DNA from: Armatimonadota bacterium
Lineage (GTDB): Bacteria > Armatimonadota > Armatimonadia > Armatimonadales > Capsulimonadaceae
Length of the DNA: 64,000 nucleotides
Assembly (NCBI GenBank): GCA_025354405.1
Contig: JANXMY010000027.1
Coordinates: forward strand, 1-64,000
Direction of reading: 5' to 3'
The translations under genes and the position numbers were made by a program. Below are positions 23,829-32,039 of the stretch, piece after piece. Under the pieces are notes generated by a model, which saw nothing but the letters and a program-made list of their open reading frames with translations, did no database searches and was not told where the DNA came from. The stretch's first letter is position 1. Each line of letters starts with the position of its first letter.

Positions 23829-25307
23829 TTACAGACCGCTTGCAAACGAAGAGGCCTCATCGACGTAGGTATTAAATGGGTTTTTCAACTCCAGATGCTG
23901 GCGCTTGTTGATGTAGATCAAATCCCAGTCGATCACGTAATCACGAGAATTGTTTGCCAGCAGCTTATCAATCACAATTCCCCGGCCTTTGGCTCGGGTA
24001 TTGCTGGGCGGCATCATCGTGGCTTCGAATATGCGGCGATCGGTGGTCGCTCGCTCGATTTGCCCCGCCTGCTCCAAGCCATAATACAGACTTGTCTCTG
24101 GATTGACATTGTGGTATTCCAAATCGAGGGAATGCAGGATATCATCCCCCCACTGCACCGCTCCATTTTCGGAGTCGATGAAATCTTCCATCATCTTGCG
24201 CTTTGCTACCCAGTCCAGCTTGGTCGCCAAAAGATAAGGGTCCTTTTCAAGATTGTCCAGGCAGTATTCCCACTCCACCAAAATATGGTCGGTCTGCGCG
24301 TCACGGCCGGTGTAGCGCTCTTTCGCCGCATTCAGATACATACGCTGCAGGTCTACCGCTGGGATCGTGTCCCCATTTTTTCGCTTGACCAGCCATTTCC
24401 AGCTCTGATCACGGGAAACGCTCTTGAGTGCTTCCAGTGGATCACGCAGCTCAACGTCGGGCAGTAAGATGCCGTCTTCGATAAGGTCCAGAACAATGCT
24501 TGTCGTCCCGATTTTTAGCAGAGTGGCATATTCGGACATATTGCATTCGCCAAACAGAATATGCAGGCGGTGTAGATTCGAGTAGTTGTAGTACGAATCC
24601 CACTTAGGATTGATAATCGCTCGGTTGAAGCGTACACGTGAGCTAATCGTCTTAACAATATGATCCGCACGCTGGGAGAGCTGAAACTCGACTGTCGGAT
24701 CGGATTCGACCCCGTAGAAATTACCGACCCACTGGTAATCCACCTCGTAGTCCGAGATGGTCATGATATTATTCTTGAGGCTCTTATAATTCAGCCGGTG
24801 ACCACCGACTCGCCCTACCCCGGCGAAAATCTGGCGTGTCACCAGGAATGGCAGCAGGTAAGAAAGTGCTTCCAGAAAGAAACGGTCATCAATCGCGACC
24901 AGAAAGTTTTCATGACACCCAAAGGTGTGACCGCCAAAGTGGTCAACCGAATTAGAGTGGAACGAGACTTTATCCTGCAAATCCAGCTCACGCAGAAGCC
25001 GCTGCAGGATGACGCGCCCGGCTTTGTCATAAGCTACCGCATCGGCAAAATCCGTACATTCCGGGGTCGCATATTCCATATGCGACCCAACAGCATCGAT
25101 ATAGAGACGTCCACCGGAGCGCAGAAACCCGCCGCAGCGGGCTGGCTCAAACGCATAATCGCGCGCATGCAGATCAATCAAGCCTAGCTTGTCCTTCAGA
25201 AAAGCATGATCTTTGACCTTCTCAACGATTGACTCCGCCGTCCCAGCGGAGTCATCACTTACCAGGCAGCCAAATTCCGTCTCAATACCGAAAATGCGTT
25301 TGTCCAT
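23829..25307 (-). CDS. pafA: Pup/UBact ligase PafA
   Basis: 492 residues, glutamine-synthetase-like carboxylate-amine ligase that joins the C-terminal Glu of the modifier to lysines on target proteins. The start MDKRIFGIETEFGCL with its metal- and ATP-binding Glu residues, THE-type HENFL and CNMSEYATLLKIGT, is shared by PafA and Dop; absence of the Dop-specific insert after the first strand marks this as PafA. ATG follows CAGGAACG. Last gene of the proteasome operon, 24 nt after prcA. Confidence 0.92.
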   Translation of the reverse strand: MDKRIFGIETEFGCLVSDDSAGTAESIVEKVKDHAFLKDKLGLIDLHARDYAFEPARCGGFLRSGGRLYIDAVGSHMEYATPECTDFADAVAYDKAGRVILQRLLRELDLQDKVSFHSNSVDHFGGHTFGCHENFLVAIDDRFFLEALSYLLPFLVTRQIFAGVGRVGGHRLNYKSLKNNIMTISDYEVDYQWVGNFYGVESDPTVEFQLSQRADHIVKTISSRVRFNRAIINPKWDSYYNYSNLHRLHILFGECNMSEYATLLKIGTTSIVLDLIEDGILLPDVELRDPLEALKSVSRDQSWKWLVKRKNGDTIPAVDLQRMYLNAAKERYTGRDAQTDHILVEWEYCLDNLEKDPYLLATKLDWVAKRKMMEDFIDSENGAVQWGDDILHSLDLEYHNVNPETSLYYGLEQAGQIERATTDRRIFEATMMPPSNTRAKGRGIVIDKLLANNSRDYVIDWDLIYINKRQHLELKNPFNTYVDEASSFASGL

Positions 25308-25331: not shown

Positions 25332-26120
25332 TTACAAGTAACGGCTGGTCGTCTGCGTCAGCTCACTGTCGGACAGCAGGCGGAAGCGGCTCTCGCGTGT
25401 GGTGTCGCGCTCGAGAACCCCTGCCTCTACGATCCAGCCTTTGCCGAGATGCTCTTTGATAAATGCCGTGACATCCTTCGGGCCTTCGCCGTCGGTAGAG
25501 TAATCGGCATCCGCTCTATCTTCGGACTCCAGATGCTTCATGCCAACACCCCAGGCGTACAGTGCCGCCCGCAAACCCGCTTCCAGCGTAGGCGTGCCGG
25601 CTTCAGTTTCAGACTTCAGATGCTCACGCATGCGGTCTTCGGCGTAGGCTGTTCCGGCGACTACCGCATGGTCCGGTGTCGTGGAAAACTCACCATCATA
25701 GGAAAGAAGCATCAGGCGATCGCGGTCCGGTGTCTTACCCATTTCCGCGAAGATACCCTTCAAAACGACGGGCTGAGCGAACGGATCACTGTAGATCTTT
25801 TTAATCGCCGGAGAGAGTCGGAAGCTGACTAGGCGCTGCACACTGACATCGTCCGGAGAGCGCTGAAAACCCTCGGCGTGAGCGACATCGATGGCGGCGA
25901 CACGAATCTGCTCCACATCACTCTGGTTCCCGATCGCGCTGAACATCAGCTTGTCGTAGATCTCATAGATTTTGCGCTGCGTTTGCCGTGCTGAAAGCAG
26001 CAGGAGGCCGCCATCGTAAGTCAGCGCGACCACCGGACTGCCGTCTTTCAGACGATCTTCAATATATTCATTTCGCTGCTGGATACTTTCGTTCCAGTCA
26101 TAGGGACTATTGGAAGGCAA
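25332..26120 (-). CDS. prcA: Proteasome alpha subunit
   Basis: 262 residues, structural outer ring of the 20S core; it gates substrate entry and binds the ATPase. Seen: the N-terminal YDWNESIQQRNEYIEDRLKDGSPVVAL that forms the gate, and the non-processed Ntn-fold core. It ends TSRYL. Start is TTG at 26120 with GGAGAAACATA upstream. 20 nt after prcB, the usual order. Confidence 0.93.
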   Translation of the reverse strand: MPSNSPYDWNESIQQRNEYIEDRLKDGSPVVALTYDGGLLLLSARQTQRKIYEIYDKLMFSAIGNQSDVEQIRVAAIDVAHAEGFQRSPDDVSVQRLVSFRLSPAIKKIYSDPFAQPVVLKGIFAEMGKTPDRDRLMLLSYDGEFSTTPDHAVVAGTAYAEDRMREHLKSETEAGTPTLEAGLRAALYAWGVGMKHLESEDRADADYSTDGEGPKDVTAFIKEHLGKGWIVEAGVLERDTTRESRFRLLSDSELTQTTSRYL

Positions 26121-26140: not shown

Positions 26141-26920
26141 CTATCGACCCAGAGCGGCCTTGATTTCGGCCTCACTGAAGTCGCGGATACCATCGGCGGT
26201 AATATACTTTGCTGCCGGCAGGAACTTCGCGGAGCCGCCGGTCGCGGTATCCAGGTCAGCGGCAATATCGAGTAGAGTCAGAGTTTCTCGCAATGCGGTC
26301 TCGCGGTCCATCTCGCGGAAGGGGCCTTTAGTTTTCAGGATATATTCGAACGCACCCTTGATCGGAGCCGAGCCGCTGCCTGCCGCCCCATATTCCGCTG
26401 TTTCGAACTGACCGCCGAGGACATCGTAAAAGTATATTCGGCCTTGGTTTGTCTCCCGGTCGTAGGTAGACAGCACGGGGATAAACGCCCCGATTCCCTG
26501 CAAAGCCGCGGGGACATTGTTCGCGATCACGCGCTGCAGCTCCATCAGCTTGCCGTCCTGCGACATGGGCTGAAGCTGGGAACGCTCAAAGTATTTGAAT
26601 GCATGACGCAAGTACCGAACCACTTCGACGCTTTTCGCGAAGGAGCCGGAAATTGAGATCAGAGTAAACTCATCCAGCGCCAGGACTTTTTCTGCCTGAT
26701 CGTACATGACTGCGTAGCCAGCAGTGGCACGGCGATCCGCGACATTGATCAGACCGTCTTTATATTTAACGGCGATCACGGTCGTGCCATGCGTATCAAC
26801 TACCCGGGTGCCAGGGACATTCGGATAAGGTGTCGGCATGGGAAGCCGGTCATAATTTATGGGTTTCTCAGCGAACAGGTCGGCAAAACCGCCTGCGCCG
26901 GGTGTATCGAATCGAAGCAT
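26141..26920 (-). CDS. prcB: Proteasome beta subunit (catalytic)
   Basis: 259 residues. A 45-residue propeptide ends in VVDTHG and should be cleaved to expose Thr46 (TTVIAVKYKDG), the N-terminal nucleophile; the catalytic Lys/Asp context DRRATAGYAVM and the GSGSAPIKG loop follow. Inner ring of the 20S core. Lies between ubact and prcA as in other bacterial proteasome operons. Confidence 0.95.
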   Translation of the reverse strand: MLRFDTPGAGGFADLFAEKPINYDRLPMPTPYPNVPGTRVVDTHGTTVIAVKYKDGLINVADRRATAGYAVMYDQAEKVLALDEFTLISISGSFAKSVEVVRYLRHAFKYFERSQLQPMSQDGKLMELQRVIANNVPAALQGIGAFIPVLSTYDRETNQGRIYFYDVLGGQFETAEYGAAGSGSAPIKGAFEYILKTKGPFREMDRETALRETLTLLDIAADLDTATGGSAKFLPAAKYITADGIRDFSEAEIKAALGR

Positions 26921-26955: not shown

Positions 26956-27144
26956 TTATTCGCCGCTGCGCTGACGGTAACGGCGCGCCTGGTCAGGATC
27001 GACCCGCTTCATCCGCTTGAGCAGATCGCTGCGGTCAGGCCGCTCAACGTCGGGTTTACTGGGGCCGGTCTCATCGCCTTCCTTGCGGAGCGGATCAGCC
27101 GGAGCGGAGGGCCGAGTGGAACGGTCATCATCGGTTACTGGCAT
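26956..27144 (-). CDS. ubact: Prokaryotic ubiquitin-like modifier, UBact type
   Basis: 62 residues, no Cys, rich in Asp, Arg and Pro, mostly disordered in character. The C-terminal block RMKRVDPDQARRYRQRSGE is the signature of UBact, the Pup homologue of some Gram-negative phyla. It ends in Gly-Glu rather than the Gly-Gly-Gln of many Pups, so it can be ligated without deamidation. SD AAAGGAACACG precedes the ATG. Located between dop and prcB, as pup is in Actinobacteria. Confidence 0.95.
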   Translation of the reverse strand: MPVTDDDRSTRPSAPADPLRKEGDETGPSKPDVERPDRSDLLKRMKRVDPDQARRYRQRSGE

Positions 27145-27186: not shown

Positions 27187-28686
27187 CTACTTGCTGCGTT
27201 CTCGAAAATGGCGAATTAAATCTTCTACTGAGCGTGCAGAGCTCAGCTCCTGCATCGCCATCGCAACGGATTCCGGCGTGAGGTAGTCGTCGAGTGCCAC
27301 CATCCATGATTCGTCGTCGGTACGCAGAACCACGCGGTTCCACCCGGCAACTCCGATTGAATCACCGAAGGTATTGATCAAATGCCCCCGAATTGCCGCC
27401 CGTGTATTCTGCGGAGCCTTCGTCATTGAAGCATTCACGGCGGCATCGTCCGTAAGGCGCAGCATTTCCCCGGCCTGCTCGAGCGCGTAATACAAGCCCT
27501 CATCTGGGTCGATATTGCTGTAAGCCAGGTCAAACGATGGCAGTGTCTCATCATTCCAGCTTATCCCCTCGGATTCAACATAATCAGCTAGGAGGCCGCG
27601 CTTTGCAACCCAATCCAGGCGATCGCTGAGCGAAAGTGGGTCACTTTCGAGTGTATCCAGAGTCCGTTCCCATTCCCGCAGCGTCCAATCCGTATCATAT
27701 CCCCGTCCGGCCAGCTTCTCTATGGCCGCCGCGAGATAGACACGCTGAACATCGACTGCAGAGATGGTACCTGTTTCGGCTTCAACTTGCCATCGATACG
27801 TCTGATCACGCGAGACTTGTTTGATCGCAGTCGTCGGCGACTTCAGTCTGACCCAGGGCTGCCATCCCATTTCCAGCAGGGAGGTCACCAAATAAGTGGT
27901 GCCGATCTTCAGTGCCGTCGCATATTCAGACATATTGGCATCGCCGCAGATAACGTGCAGACGACGCCATTCCCGCGGATCCGCATGCGGCTCATCACGC
28001 GTATTCACTAGCGGTCGACGGTGAAGCGTATCAACGGAAGCTTCTTCGGTAAAAAAATCAGCCCTCTGAGAAATTTGGTATAGCCCTTTATCACCATTCG
28101 GCTCAATCCCTAACTTCCCTGCTCCCGTGTAGAGTATACGGGTCGCGAAGAAGGGAAGAAGTCCGGACAGCAGCTCTGAAAACGGTGTCGCTCTGGGTAT
28201 AAGATAGTTCTCATGTGTTCCGTAAGACGAACCGTGGTAATCCGTGTTGTTCTTGAAGATATGCACCTGTCCGGCACCCGGCTGCTCCGAACGCGCTTTA
28301 GCACAGGCCAGAACAATCTTTTCACCCGCTTTGTCGTGTGCCACCAGATCCAGCAGAGAAGAGCACTCCGGTGTTGAATACTCCGGGTGGCCATGGTCGT
28401 TATAGAGGCGAGCCCCATTGACCAGTACCCGGTCCGCCCGCTCTTCTTCCACCGGCAAAGGCTTTTGCCCCGGGGTATCGAACTGTGCGTCATTTGGATC
28501 GAAATTCAGCTTGTCGACATGGAAGCCGCGCATATCATTGCGGGGGTCTTCGCCTTTGTAATACCAGGGCCCGGCAGCTTTGCCAGCATATGCCCGTACG
28601 ACTGCCCGCGACTCCGTGACCAGATCGCCCGCACCGCGCCCGTCTACTGCAATCCCATATTCCGTTTCGATGCCGAATAGTGGCAA
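27187..28686 (-). CDS. dop: Depupylase/deamidase Dop
   Basis: 499 residues, PafA paralogue that removes the modifier from proteins and in Gln-ending systems deamidates it. Begins MPLFGIETEYGI and has the Dop-specific insert (about residues 38-80, including DMRGFHVDKLNF). Shared motifs: NTDYHGSSYGTHENYL and GDANMSEYATALKIGT. The start is TTG at 28686 with AGAGG upstream. Since the modifier here already ends in Glu, the main job should be removal and recycling. Confidence 0.93.
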   Translation of the reverse strand: MPLFGIETEYGIAVDGRGAGDLVTESRAVVRAYAGKAAGPWYYKGEDPRNDMRGFHVDKLNFDPNDAQFDTPGQKPLPVEEERADRVLVNGARLYNDHGHPEYSTPECSSLLDLVAHDKAGEKIVLACAKARSEQPGAGQVHIFKNNTDYHGSSYGTHENYLIPRATPFSELLSGLLPFFATRILYTGAGKLGIEPNGDKGLYQISQRADFFTEEASVDTLHRRPLVNTRDEPHADPREWRRLHVICGDANMSEYATALKIGTTYLVTSLLEMGWQPWVRLKSPTTAIKQVSRDQTYRWQVEAETGTISAVDVQRVYLAAAIEKLAGRGYDTDWTLREWERTLDTLESDPLSLSDRLDWVAKRGLLADYVESEGISWNDETLPSFDLAYSNIDPDEGLYYALEQAGEMLRLTDDAAVNASMTKAPQNTRAAIRGHLINTFGDSIGVAGWNRVVLRTDDESWMVALDDYLTPESVAMAMQELSSARSVEDLIRHFRERSK

Positions 28687-28695
28687 GATGGACCT

Positions 28696-28983
28696 CTAAT
28701 TCCGAGTGTTTTCGCCTGTGAGAATCACTGCTCCGCTGGTAGGCATAGTGCAGAGAAACTTTAGAGCTTTATCGAATTTTGTCTCGAACATTAATTCGTT
28801 CAAGCTATCAATGGCAACTTTGGGGAGGAAATATCCAGCATTTTTGATCAGCGCATGAGCATACTGCTCTGGCGTCATGCCGATCATATCTTCAATTGTT
28901 GTATTTTCCTGTAGTATCTGTGCCAAGATTTCTTTTGCACTGCCTGTGCGGATTTGGTTATTATCTAAGACCTTATAGGTCAT
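28696..28983 (-). CDS. Unknown small protein in the proteasome operon
   Basis: 95 residues from the ATG at 28983, which has AGAGGG seven bases upstream. No family recognised. Visible: MTYKVLDNNQIRTGSAKEIL at the N-terminus, then mostly helical sequence (MIGMTPEQYAHALIKNAGYFLPKVA) with hydrophobic patches and no transmembrane helix. It is AT-richer than dop and arc. It follows the next gene upstream by 68 nt and precedes dop by 9 nt, so it is transcribed with the proteasome genes. Confidence 0.65.
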   Translation of the reverse strand: MTYKVLDNNQIRTGSAKEILAQILQENTTIEDMIGMTPEQYAHALIKNAGYFLPKVAIDSLNELMFETKFDKALKFLCTMPTSGAVILTGENTRN

Positions 28984-29051
28984 CCAAAACCCTCTTTTTT
29001 CTTTCGCGCGAGCCACTGCTTCACAATGAGCTTCGCCGCTGAAGGCTGTAA

Positions 29052-29453
29052 TTAAAATCTCATTTGTATGCTGCTGCGATGTTCTGAGACAAAAGTACTC
29101 AGCATTCTCGAACCTGTGTATTCACCTTGTTTCGGCGCACTGAACAAGATGAGTGTTTGCGTACCGTAATCCGCAACTCGCTCGATCTCCATAAGAGCAC
29201 CCGAGGGACGACTCATCTCAAAAATGGCCAATCGGCAACTGTGAAGCCACACCATTGTCTCGTGGTGAATATCCCCGGCGTTTTCCAATTGCACTTCATC
29301 AGCCACGACTGGGATGTATCCAGCTTTCACGACGTCTGATTTGATCTCTGCCAGTCGGGACCTTTCTTCAAGATGATAGCTCCCGCCCGCAAAAACGCGC
29401 GAACGATATGCTCCAACACACTTCGCGGCATCTGCCATATTTTCCACTGGCAT
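29052..29453 (-). CDS. Unknown Rossmann-like protein (nucleoside deoxyribosyltransferase/TIR-like pattern) in the proteasome operon
   Basis: 133 residues from ATG 29453, behind GGAAGGGCAAGG; ATG 29471 is possible. The pattern VFAGGSY, then an amphipathic helix, GYIPVVADE, LHSCRLAIFEMSRPSGALMEIERVADYG and LILFSAP is that of a small Rossmann-like fold such as nucleoside 2-deoxyribosyltransferase-like or TIR-like proteins, where the Glu after SGAL would be catalytic. This is a fold-level guess. AT-richer than its neighbours; sits between the ATPase gene and the 95-residue unknown. Confidence 0.6.
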   Translation of the reverse strand: MPVENMADAAKCVGAYRSRVFAGGSYHLEERSRLAEIKSDVVKAGYIPVVADEVQLENAGDIHHETMVWLHSCRLAIFEMSRPSGALMEIERVADYGTQTLILFSAPKQGEYTGSRMLSTFVSEHRSSIQMRF

Positions 29454-29488
29454 CCTTGCCCTTCCATTCATCCCTGAGTGATTTTTGG

Positions 29489-31231
29489 CTAAATCACGTT
29501 TCGACGCGTCGTCTGCGTCCCCTTTTTTGCGGTGATCGGGTTCAGGCGTACAACATTATCCGGCTCGTAATCCAGCAGCTTGAGCCAGTCTTCAATGTTG
29601 TCTGTCTTCGGGAAGATCTCGTTCTCCTTGAACTCAGTGCGGATCGCCCGCTCCATATCTTCCCACGAAACCCCTTCTTTGGTGCTTTTGACTTCAATCG
29701 AGCGCTTGATTGCATAGTCTTTCGCCCGCTCCACAACAGAGGTTAGCAAAGCCCCGGAGACGAGGTCTTTCCAGTAGAGCGTGTCCACCGAGCCGTTCTT
29801 GAGATAGACTTCCAGAAACTCAGTTTCGTGATTCTTCGTCCAAACCAACTCTGTTGACTTATCTACCAGGAACTGACGCGCTTTCTCGTTGCTGCCCTGC
29901 TCGTCCACGGTTTTGTAATCCAGTGGAAGGTCTTTGTGCAGGTAGATGCCCAGAATATCGCGAGTACTTGGCTTGTCTGGGCGCACGACCTTCACCTTGC
30001 GATCGATTCGCTCTGGTCGAAGAATGGCCGGGTCGATATAGTCTGGTCGGTTCGAGGTCAGCATGACCACGACGTTTTCCAGCGATACCAGACCATCCAT
30101 TTCGGCGCAGAACTGCGGCACAACGGTGTTCGAGATATTCGTAAATCGACCCGAAGAGCGGGTCCGCAGAATGCTCTCTGCTTCATCAATAAAGATGAAG
30201 ACTAGGTAACCCTCTTTGGCCTTTTCGCGGGCGGTTGAGAAGATCTCCCGAACCTGACGCTCCGATTCGCCCAGCCACATATTCAGGATCTTCGGGCCAT
30301 TGATGTACATGAAGTACTCTTTGACATCCCGCTTGGTCCGGGCCTTATATTCCTGAGTGATATTGTAGGCCGTCGCCTTTCCGATCAGTGTTTTGCCACA
30401 GCCGGGAGGGCCGTAAAGCAGAATTCCCTTGAGGGGCCGCTTGCCGAACCGCTCATACAGCTCTGGGTAAAGGAGCGGCAGCTCGATCGCGTCTTTGATG
30501 ACACTGATCGCTTCCTGCTGACCACCGATCTTATCCCAGGGGATTTCCGTAACCTTGTCCAGGAAGAAATCCTGGTTCTCTTTTGCCGCAAAGGCCTCCA
30601 GAGCGACCCGGAAATTGGGTTCCATGCGGATGTCTGTACCGGCCTTGATCTTCGTATCTTCCAGACCCTTACCACGCATGACAACCCGAGTATTCAGGCC
30701 CTGCTGATCGCCGCCGATACGCAGACGCCCGTCTTCCAGGGCTTCGGTAACTTTAACAACCTGCCCGTTCTGTGCCGGGCCGAGGTCGCCAACAATCGCA
30801 TAGGCTTCGTTGACTTTAACTCGTGTCCCGACTTGGAGCGTATCCAACTCGATATTCGGATCGACGTTGGTATAGAAGTCATTGTCTCCCATCGCGATAT
30901 TCGCCGTGCCATCTTCATTCGCCGAAAGGAACACTGCGACACGGTTTGCAGGTGCGGTCAGCTTGTTGTAAGCTTCGTCGTATTTCGCGATCAGCTCCTG
31001 GGCTTCGGCGAACTGCTTTTCGTCAGTCTCCAGCTGATGCCGGAGCAGGAGAAGATATTGATAATTGGGATCGATCGGGTCGGTGCTTTTCAGGATTTCG
31101 TCCAGCACAAAAAGAGACTGAACATTTGTTTCCTGATTGCGCGGGATAGACTCGCTCTTCCCGTTAGTGCTGCTCTCGCGGCGTCCCCCGCCGCGTCGAT
31201 TTTCGTTACGCTCGTTACGTTCGCTCGCCAT
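29489..31231 (-). CDS. arc: Proteasome-associated AAA+ ATPase ring (ARC/Mpa)
   Basis: 580 residues. A basic, disordered N-terminus is followed by a coiled-coil (about 50-90) that would bind the modifier, two OB domains, and one AAA+ module: Walker A GPPGCGKT, Walker B FIFIDEAE, arginine-rich LRPERIDRK. It unfolds tagged proteins into the 20S core. ATG 31231 has GAGGAAAG upstream; an earlier in-frame ATG at 31264 overlaps the sigma gene. Oddity: the C-terminus is TTRRNVI, without the terminal GQYL/QYL that docks Mpa/ARC on the alpha ring. Confidence 0.93.
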   Translation of the reverse strand: MASERNERNENRRGGGRRESSTNGKSESIPRNQETNVQSLFVLDEILKSTDPIDPNYQYLLLLRHQLETDEKQFAEAQELIAKYDEAYNKLTAPANRVAVFLSANEDGTANIAMGDNDFYTNVDPNIELDTLQVGTRVKVNEAYAIVGDLGPAQNGQVVKVTEALEDGRLRIGGDQQGLNTRVVMRGKGLEDTKIKAGTDIRMEPNFRVALEAFAAKENQDFFLDKVTEIPWDKIGGQQEAISVIKDAIELPLLYPELYERFGKRPLKGILLYGPPGCGKTLIGKATAYNITQEYKARTKRDVKEYFMYINGPKILNMWLGESERQVREIFSTAREKAKEGYLVFIFIDEAESILRTRSSGRFTNISNTVVPQFCAEMDGLVSLENVVVMLTSNRPDYIDPAILRPERIDRKVKVVRPDKPSTRDILGIYLHKDLPLDYKTVDEQGSNEKARQFLVDKSTELVWTKNHETEFLEVYLKNGSVDTLYWKDLVSGALLTSVVERAKDYAIKRSIEVKSTKEGVSWEDMERAIRTEFKENEIFPKTDNIEDWLKLLDYEPDNVVRLNPITAKKGTQTTRRNVI

Positions 31232-31253
31232 GCGTTCTTTCCTCTTGTCCTTC

Positions 31254-32039
31254 TTATTCCCCATTACTCACTACGCTACGCACCTTCACAGTTTTCTTGC
31301 TAGTAGTGTACCCATTTTGACTTATTTTGACTGGAGCGATCGTTGTCCAGTCTCCGGTGAGAAGTGCGACCATTCGCTCGGTATTACCCTTCTCAAATGC
31401 ATCTACCCACTGCGCGACAGTTTCCTGCGCGCCTGGGTCGGCAGCGGCTAGATCTCGAACATCTGCGGGGTTACCGCCACTGGGATGCTGTGCCAATGTT
31501 TGCCGAGCACGGGCCAGGGCGTTTTTCACAGAAGGGACAGTCGTCTCTAATATTCGCGCCGTTTCTTCTGCGTTCCAGCCCAGGACATCCCTGAGTACTA
31601 GTGCCGCCCTTTGCCGCGGGGGCAGGCTTTGCACCAGAGCAACGAACCCTAGCCTGACGTTCTCACGCTCTTGGCCGGCTTCTTCGGCATCGGGAGCTGT
31701 TCCCTGATTTCCCACCTCATCCAGGGAGCGCCAGAGCGGTGGTCTGCGCTGAACATGATTAAGGCACAAATTGTGCGCAATACGATAGAGCCAAGCACGC
31801 AGGCTGGCCCTGCCTTCGAAAGTGTCTAGGGCACGGTAGGCGCGCAGGAAAGACTCCTGCACCATATCTTCAGCTTCGGTCAAAGTGCCGGTCAGGCGAT
31901 AACAATACGCAATTAATTCGCGCCGATATGGCTCCGTCAGACGGCTAAATACCCTACGGTCACCGCGACGGGCACGCAAAATGGCTGATGCCTCCTGGTG
32001 GAGGGTGTCAGACACAGGCGGGTCGTTTTTCGTGGCCAC
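31254..32039 (-). CDS. ECF RNA polymerase sigma factor with shortened C-terminal extension
   Basis: 261 residues. Sigma region 2 (YRRELIAYCYRLTGTLTEAEDMVQES, FLRAYRALDTFEGRASLRAWLYRIAHN) and region 4 (LPPRQRAALVLRDVLGWNAEETARIL) are intact. A C-terminal extension begins like a SnoaL domain (TVAQWVDAFEKGNTERMVALL) but stops about 35 residues later, far short of the ~110 usual in ECF41/ECF56 sigma factors. GTG start with AGGAGA. First gene of the proteasome operon, 22 nt before arc, so it probably shares the transcript. Confidence 0.88.
   Translation of the reverse strand: MATKNDPPVSDTLHQEASAILRARRGDRRVFSRLTEPYRRELIAYCYRLTGTLTEAEDMVQESFLRAYRALDTFEGRASLRAWLYRIAHNLCLNHVQRRPPLWRSLDEVGNQGTAPDAEEAGQERENVRLGFVALVQSLPPRQRAALVLRDVLGWNAEETARILETTVPSVKNALARARQTLAQHPSGGNPADVRDLAAADPGAQETVAQWVDAFEKGNTERMVALLTGDWTTIAPVKISQNGYTTSKKTVKVRSVVSNGE

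Follow-up and report, generated by a model that had tools for sequence, protein, structure and literature searches.

A genus-specific pair of genes lies between arc and dop in an Armatimonadota UBact-proteasome operon

Results

Two additional genes interrupt a standard UBact-proteasome operon

The window that we analysed, a 64,000-nt stretch from an Armatimonadota metagenome-assembled genome (MAG), contains all six genes of the UBact-proteasome operon. The genes are ordered arc-dop-UBact-prcB-prcA-pafA as in the standard operon and each matches its own family, with the difference that two extra genes, which we refer to as gene 1 and gene 2, are found between arc and dop. The minus-strand order is a sigma-type gene (32039-31254), arc, gene 1, gene 2, dop, UBact, prcB, prcA and pafA, and the features of the operon are as follows:

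29489..31264, minus strand: arc, proteasomal AAA ATPase, upstream flank of the insert (TIGR03689, 2.5e-135)
29052..29471, minus strand: gene 1, open reading frame of 139 aa (dN/dS 0.13; weak DNPH1 matches, E about 0.5)
28983..29051, minus strand: lost C-terminus of gene 1, 23 codons, LQPSAAKLIVKQWLARKKKEGFG (from alignment with the same-genus genome)
28980..28983, minus strand: ATGA overlap of the ancestral gene 1 stop and the gene 2 start, in both genomes
28696..28983, minus strand: gene 2, open reading frame of 95 aa, no known family (dN/dS 0.10)
27187..28686, minus strand: dop, TTG start, downstream flank of the insert (TIGR03688, 7e-135)
26956..27144, minus strand: UBact modifier gene (PF20513, 4.3e-24; NF033388, 4.4e-24)
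26141..26920, minus strand: prcB (TIGR03690, 1.7e-42)
25332..26120, minus strand: prcA (TIGR03691, 4.8e-19)
23829..25307, minus strand: pafA-type ligase (PF03136, 2.3e-122)

The initial annotation described an AT-richer two-gene cassette inside an otherwise standard proteasome operon, and the GC ranks, open reading frames and family matches all agree with that description. The GC content is 0.493 for gene 1 and 0.417 for gene 2, compared with a mean of 0.555 for the 61 open reading frames of the window, of which gene 2 has the lowest value and gene 1 the third lowest. The low GC content could be due in part to amelioration or to small size. The 133-residue protein of the initial annotation is the form of gene 1 that starts at Met7 of the 139-aa reading frame, and its 95-residue protein is gene 2.

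The spacing within the operon is tight. Gene 1 begins 17 bp after the arc stop codon, and 9 bp separate the end of gene 2 from the TTG start of dop, whose Shine-Dalgarno-like AGAGGT overlaps the gene 2 stop. A second Shine-Dalgarno-like motif, GAGGG, precedes gene 2 at 28990-28994. We found neither a sigma-70-like promoter nor a terminator on the minus strand within the cassette. The insert is not bordered by repeats, and no mobile-element gene such as an integrase or transposase accompanies it in the arc-dop interval. Given this spacing and the absence of internal signals and flanking repeats, gene 1 and gene 2 are most likely cotranscribed with the operon. At the upstream end, the sigma-70-family (ECF-like) gene at 31254-32039 lies on the same strand, shares about 10 bp with the start of arc, and may be transcribed together with the proteasome operon.

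The pair is a genus-specific insertion that predates the split of its two carriers

Gene 1 was detected in 2 of 291 genomes of the phylum, both from one genus: the genome of the window and Armatimonadetes bacterium 341R_concoct_144 (JANXNV010000086.1; G001), a MAG and the sole same-genus genome compared, hereafter the relative. A scan of genome contigs likewise found only this same-genus record. Convincing matches to gene 2 were limited to the same two genomes, both in a strict search of 61 relatives and in a profile search of the 291 genomes; the best of its weak additional matches in the phylum (family f45) were short-chain dehydrogenases and were rejected. The pair was missing from every other UBact operon that we examined, those of the same family among them, and in one genome of that family (G004) about 14 bp separate the arc stop from the dop start with no insert. 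With the pair in 2 of 291 genomes and a gap of this size in G004, gene 1 and gene 2 are a genus-specific insertion, and the possibility that they are a constant part of proteasome operons is ruled out by the same distribution.

The two carriers show a synonymous divergence (dS) of 0.72 for gene 1 and 0.92 for gene 2, comparable to the 0.85-2.2 of the operon genes, and therefore the insertion is older than the split of the two species. No homologue was found outside the genus in the 291 phylum genomes or in phage, plasmid and viral-contig comparisons, so the origin and partnership of the two genes are judged from position alone.

Both genes have been under selection. Compared with the single same-genus genome, dN/dS is 0.13 (95% 0.07-0.22) for gene 1 and 0.10 (95% 0.04-0.21) for gene 2, and the differences in gene 1 fall mostly at third codon positions. 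Between the same two carriers the operon genes have dN/dS values of 0.004-0.04. We conclude that gene 1 and gene 2 are genuine, constrained coding genes that selection maintained until recently. Two local features were also observed at the end of gene 2. Its last 47 codons (28699-28839) have a dS of 0.36, much below that of its first half and of the neighbouring genes, for which recombination or an overlapping constraint are possible explanations; and in the relative (L037 / L007), CGGAATTAG is duplicated at the gene 2 stop, directly ahead of dop.

Gene 1 carries a different lesion in each genome and was coupled to gene 2

A point absent from the initial annotation is that a stop codon truncates gene 1 at its C-terminus and that the old frame reaches the start codon of gene 2. 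In the window, a TAA stop costs gene 1 23 C-terminal codons; past this stop the frame continues for 23 codons matching the C-terminus of the relative and then ends at a TGA that overlaps the ATG of gene 2. In the relative, a 7-bp deletion after codon 97 of gene 1 results in a frameshift. The two lesions arose independently, and gene 2 is intact in both genomes. The ATGA overlap in the ancestral frame is common to both genomes, from which we conclude that gene 1 originally comprised about 163 codons and that its translation was coupled to that of gene 2. This coupling suggests that gene 2 encodes a partner protein of gene 1.

Between the two genomes, dN/dS in gene 1 is 0.09 before the frameshift point and 0.19 after it; the frameshift is therefore either recent or an assembly error. 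Gene 1 is apparently undergoing erosion.

The arc-dop junction tolerates insertions

We surveyed 17 genomes outside the genus in which arc lies directly upstream of dop. Fourteen of these junctions are gaps of roughly 14-230 bp with no recognisable gene, and each of the other three holds one unrelated gene: a CN_hydrolase (L098 in G020; 1.4e-49), a Uma2 protein (L099 in G014; 1.4e-33) and a TPR protein (L087 in G038). In addition, the gap in G002, a genome of the same family, contains a palindromic repeat of 145 bp whose 28-bp arms match perfectly (L038:9361-9505 = G002:C1:5882360-5882504). This repeat has 84 matches in G002 counting both strands, which correspond to about 40 places, with fewer in G006, and is MITE-like. 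With unrelated genes or a palindromic repeat at this position in four other lineages, we conclude that the arc-dop junction tolerates insertions, and thus that a position there says little about function. In ten further genomes, arc is missing from the roughly 5 kb upstream of the dop homologue (G022, G017, G008, G007, G036, G010, G060, G013, G043 and G030); the operon is therefore split in many Armatimonadota.

Gene 1 resembles nucleotide N-glycosidases at the level of motifs

The sequence of gene 1 looks alpha/beta and contains motifs similar to those of nucleoside 2-deoxyribosyltransferases (NDT) and DNPH1: FAGGSY (27-32), PSG (89-91) and MEIE (94-97). The sole recurring lead from database searches was a weak match to one PDB family, DNPH1 (phmmer, E about 0.5, non-significant). 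In DNPH1 and the related MilB, a glutamate (E104/E103) is the nucleophile and a serine (S98/S97) binds phosphate, an aspartate (D80) is the acid/base of DNPH1, and a phenylalanine at the first-strand position of MilB favours ribonucleotides (PMC10603095, PMC4081090). The non-significant alignment places Glu95 of gene 1, which is also conserved in the relative, on E104, and Ser90 of the PSG motif on S98. The catalytic D80 aligns with Thr72, which adjoins Glu71. By eye, Phe27, in the first strand FAGGSY, occupies the position of DNPH1 Tyr24 and MilB Phe17.

Compared with DNPH1 (Rcl), a 2'-deoxynucleoside 5'-phosphate N-hydrolase, gene 1 is thus alike in Glu95, Ser90 and a similar strand-loop-helix stretch, and unlike it in Thr72 for D80, in Phe27 for Y24, and in having no recognisable counterpart of the helical extension of the human enzyme. 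The CMP N-glycosidases MilB and BlsM carry F-L-(G/A)-(G/A)-P-F, which resembles F-A-G-G-S-Y of gene 1, together with the ribose-preferring Phe, the Ser and the Glu; gene 1 differs from them in lacking the Pro, in having no linked thymidylate-synthase-like gene, and in giving no sequence-level match. With nucleoside 2-deoxyribosyltransferases (PF05014), gene 1 shares the general order of strands and helices as well as a Glu that follows a Gly-containing loop, whereas hmmscan and hhalign were both negative: gene 1 did not match PF05014 at E up to 10, and its profile aligned to ten NDT and NDT-like proteins with an hhalign probability of 0.1% and a score no better than that of shuffled sequences. 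PF05014 had no match in the window's own genome. The reversed gene 1 sequence gave no match in the PDB, which speaks for the likeness to DNPH1; the first 101 gene 1 residues of the relative did not match DNPH1, which speaks against it.

Structure prediction yielded no usable model of either protein. AlphaFold models built from two-sequence alignments had a mean pLDDT of 36 for gene 1 and 49.5 for gene 2, and Foldseek searches with both returned only noise. Comparisons with Pfam, NCBIfam, PADLOC and PHROGs were negative for gene 1 and identified no family or relative of gene 2, and a TIR reading of gene 1 was rejected after no Pfam or PADLOC model matched. The Rossmann-like, NDT or TIR fold proposed in the initial annotation is thus reduced to a motif-level likeness to DNPH1 and MilB. 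Since the profile test and the catalytic Asp test failed, we do not place gene 1 in the NDT/DNPH1/MilB family; its motifs suggest a possible activity similar to that of nucleotide N-glycosidases.

The pair has no detectable relatives among defence systems, phages or plasmids

PADLOC defence models matched neither gene, and no relative of the pair was found among viral contigs, phages or plasmids. A motif-pattern match, L071, proved to be an unrelated phage protein. Weak plasmid and phage matches (Sinorhizobium, Bacillus and Pseudomonas phages) were rejected because they lacked the motif, were otherwise annotated, or lay antisense to an annotated gene.

Discussion

We propose, with a probability of roughly 0.4, that the pair is a genus-specific and probably horizontally acquired passenger, consisting of a nucleotide N-glycosidase-like enzyme and a small coupled partner, and that it is neither a component nor a client of the UBact system. 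The two-gene unit would have entered the permissive arc-dop junction before the two known members of the genus diverged, in line with the operon, so that it would be read from the operon transcript. Gene 1 would encode a small N-glycosidase-like enzyme of the NDT/DNPH1/MilB type, with Glu95 as the putative nucleophile, Ser90 binding phosphate and Phe27 favouring ribonucleotides, and gene 2 its translationally coupled small partner. As a passenger, the pair would exploit the expression of the operon while gene 1 is on its way to loss or to a shorter form.

The enzymatic part of this proposal depends on the motifs, and it is quite possible that gene 1 encodes some other small alpha/beta protein whose likeness to N-glycosidases arose by chance. 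None of the statistical tests reached significance and Thr stands in place of the Asp in the DNPH1 triad, as expected of such a protein, while the alignment of three active-site positions at roughly the right spacing and the fit of the surrounding hydrophobic-strand pattern argue for a real resemblance. The lesions in gene 1 raise a separate question. Both genomes are MAGs, that of the window being in 233 contigs, and the codons after the stop and after the frameshift still look coding; these observations would fit sequencing or assembly artefacts in an intact natural gene 1 of about 163 aa. We consider this unlikely, because two lesions of different kinds fall in one small gene and none was found in the other operon genes compared.

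The initial annotation raised two further readings, a defence-type module and a protein pair whose stability is set by UBact, and both are possible at low probability. In the first, gene 1 would be a nucleotide- or NAD-cleaving toxin since disabled in each species, and gene 2 a retained neutraliser, as in a toxin-antitoxin-like pair. A small overlapping two-gene unit, present here as the ancestral-frame ATGA in both genomes, is a trait of such systems, and the low GC content, the orphan distribution, and an intact gene 2 beside an independently damaged gene 1 are what this reading would expect. Nevertheless, we regard it as somewhat unlikely: the PADLOC, phage, plasmid and viral-contig comparisons gave no positive evidence for a defence role, purifying selection acted on gene 1 through most of the divergence, and the enzyme-first gene order is less common in toxin-antitoxin-type pairs. 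In the second, the pair would be a functional accessory of the UBact-proteasome, acting as a substrate, adaptor or regulator of Arc or Dop with its stability or activity tied to UBact. Its cotranscribed position within the operon and the constraint on both genes are compatible with such a role. The main evidence against it is that other lineages have unrelated genes at this junction, which leaves regulation by UBact unsupported; furthermore, no other UBact operon examined has the pair, and both copies of gene 1 bear lesions, whereas the operon genes remain under much stronger constraint. An accessory role is thus improbable. The most ambitious version, in which a new two-gene family of a ribonucleotide N-glycosidase-like enzyme and its coupled partner was recruited so that nucleotide cleavage is co-produced with, and limited by, UBact-dependent proteolysis, would be very improbable indeed.

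Should the pair prove to be linked to UBact after all, it would be the first client or accessory of this poorly studied bacterial ubiquitin-like system. What the data show is a genus-level orphan gene pair within a UBact operon, the enzyme-like member of which appears to be eroding. The repeated uptake of unrelated genes by the arc-dop junction calls for caution in inferring function from a position there.
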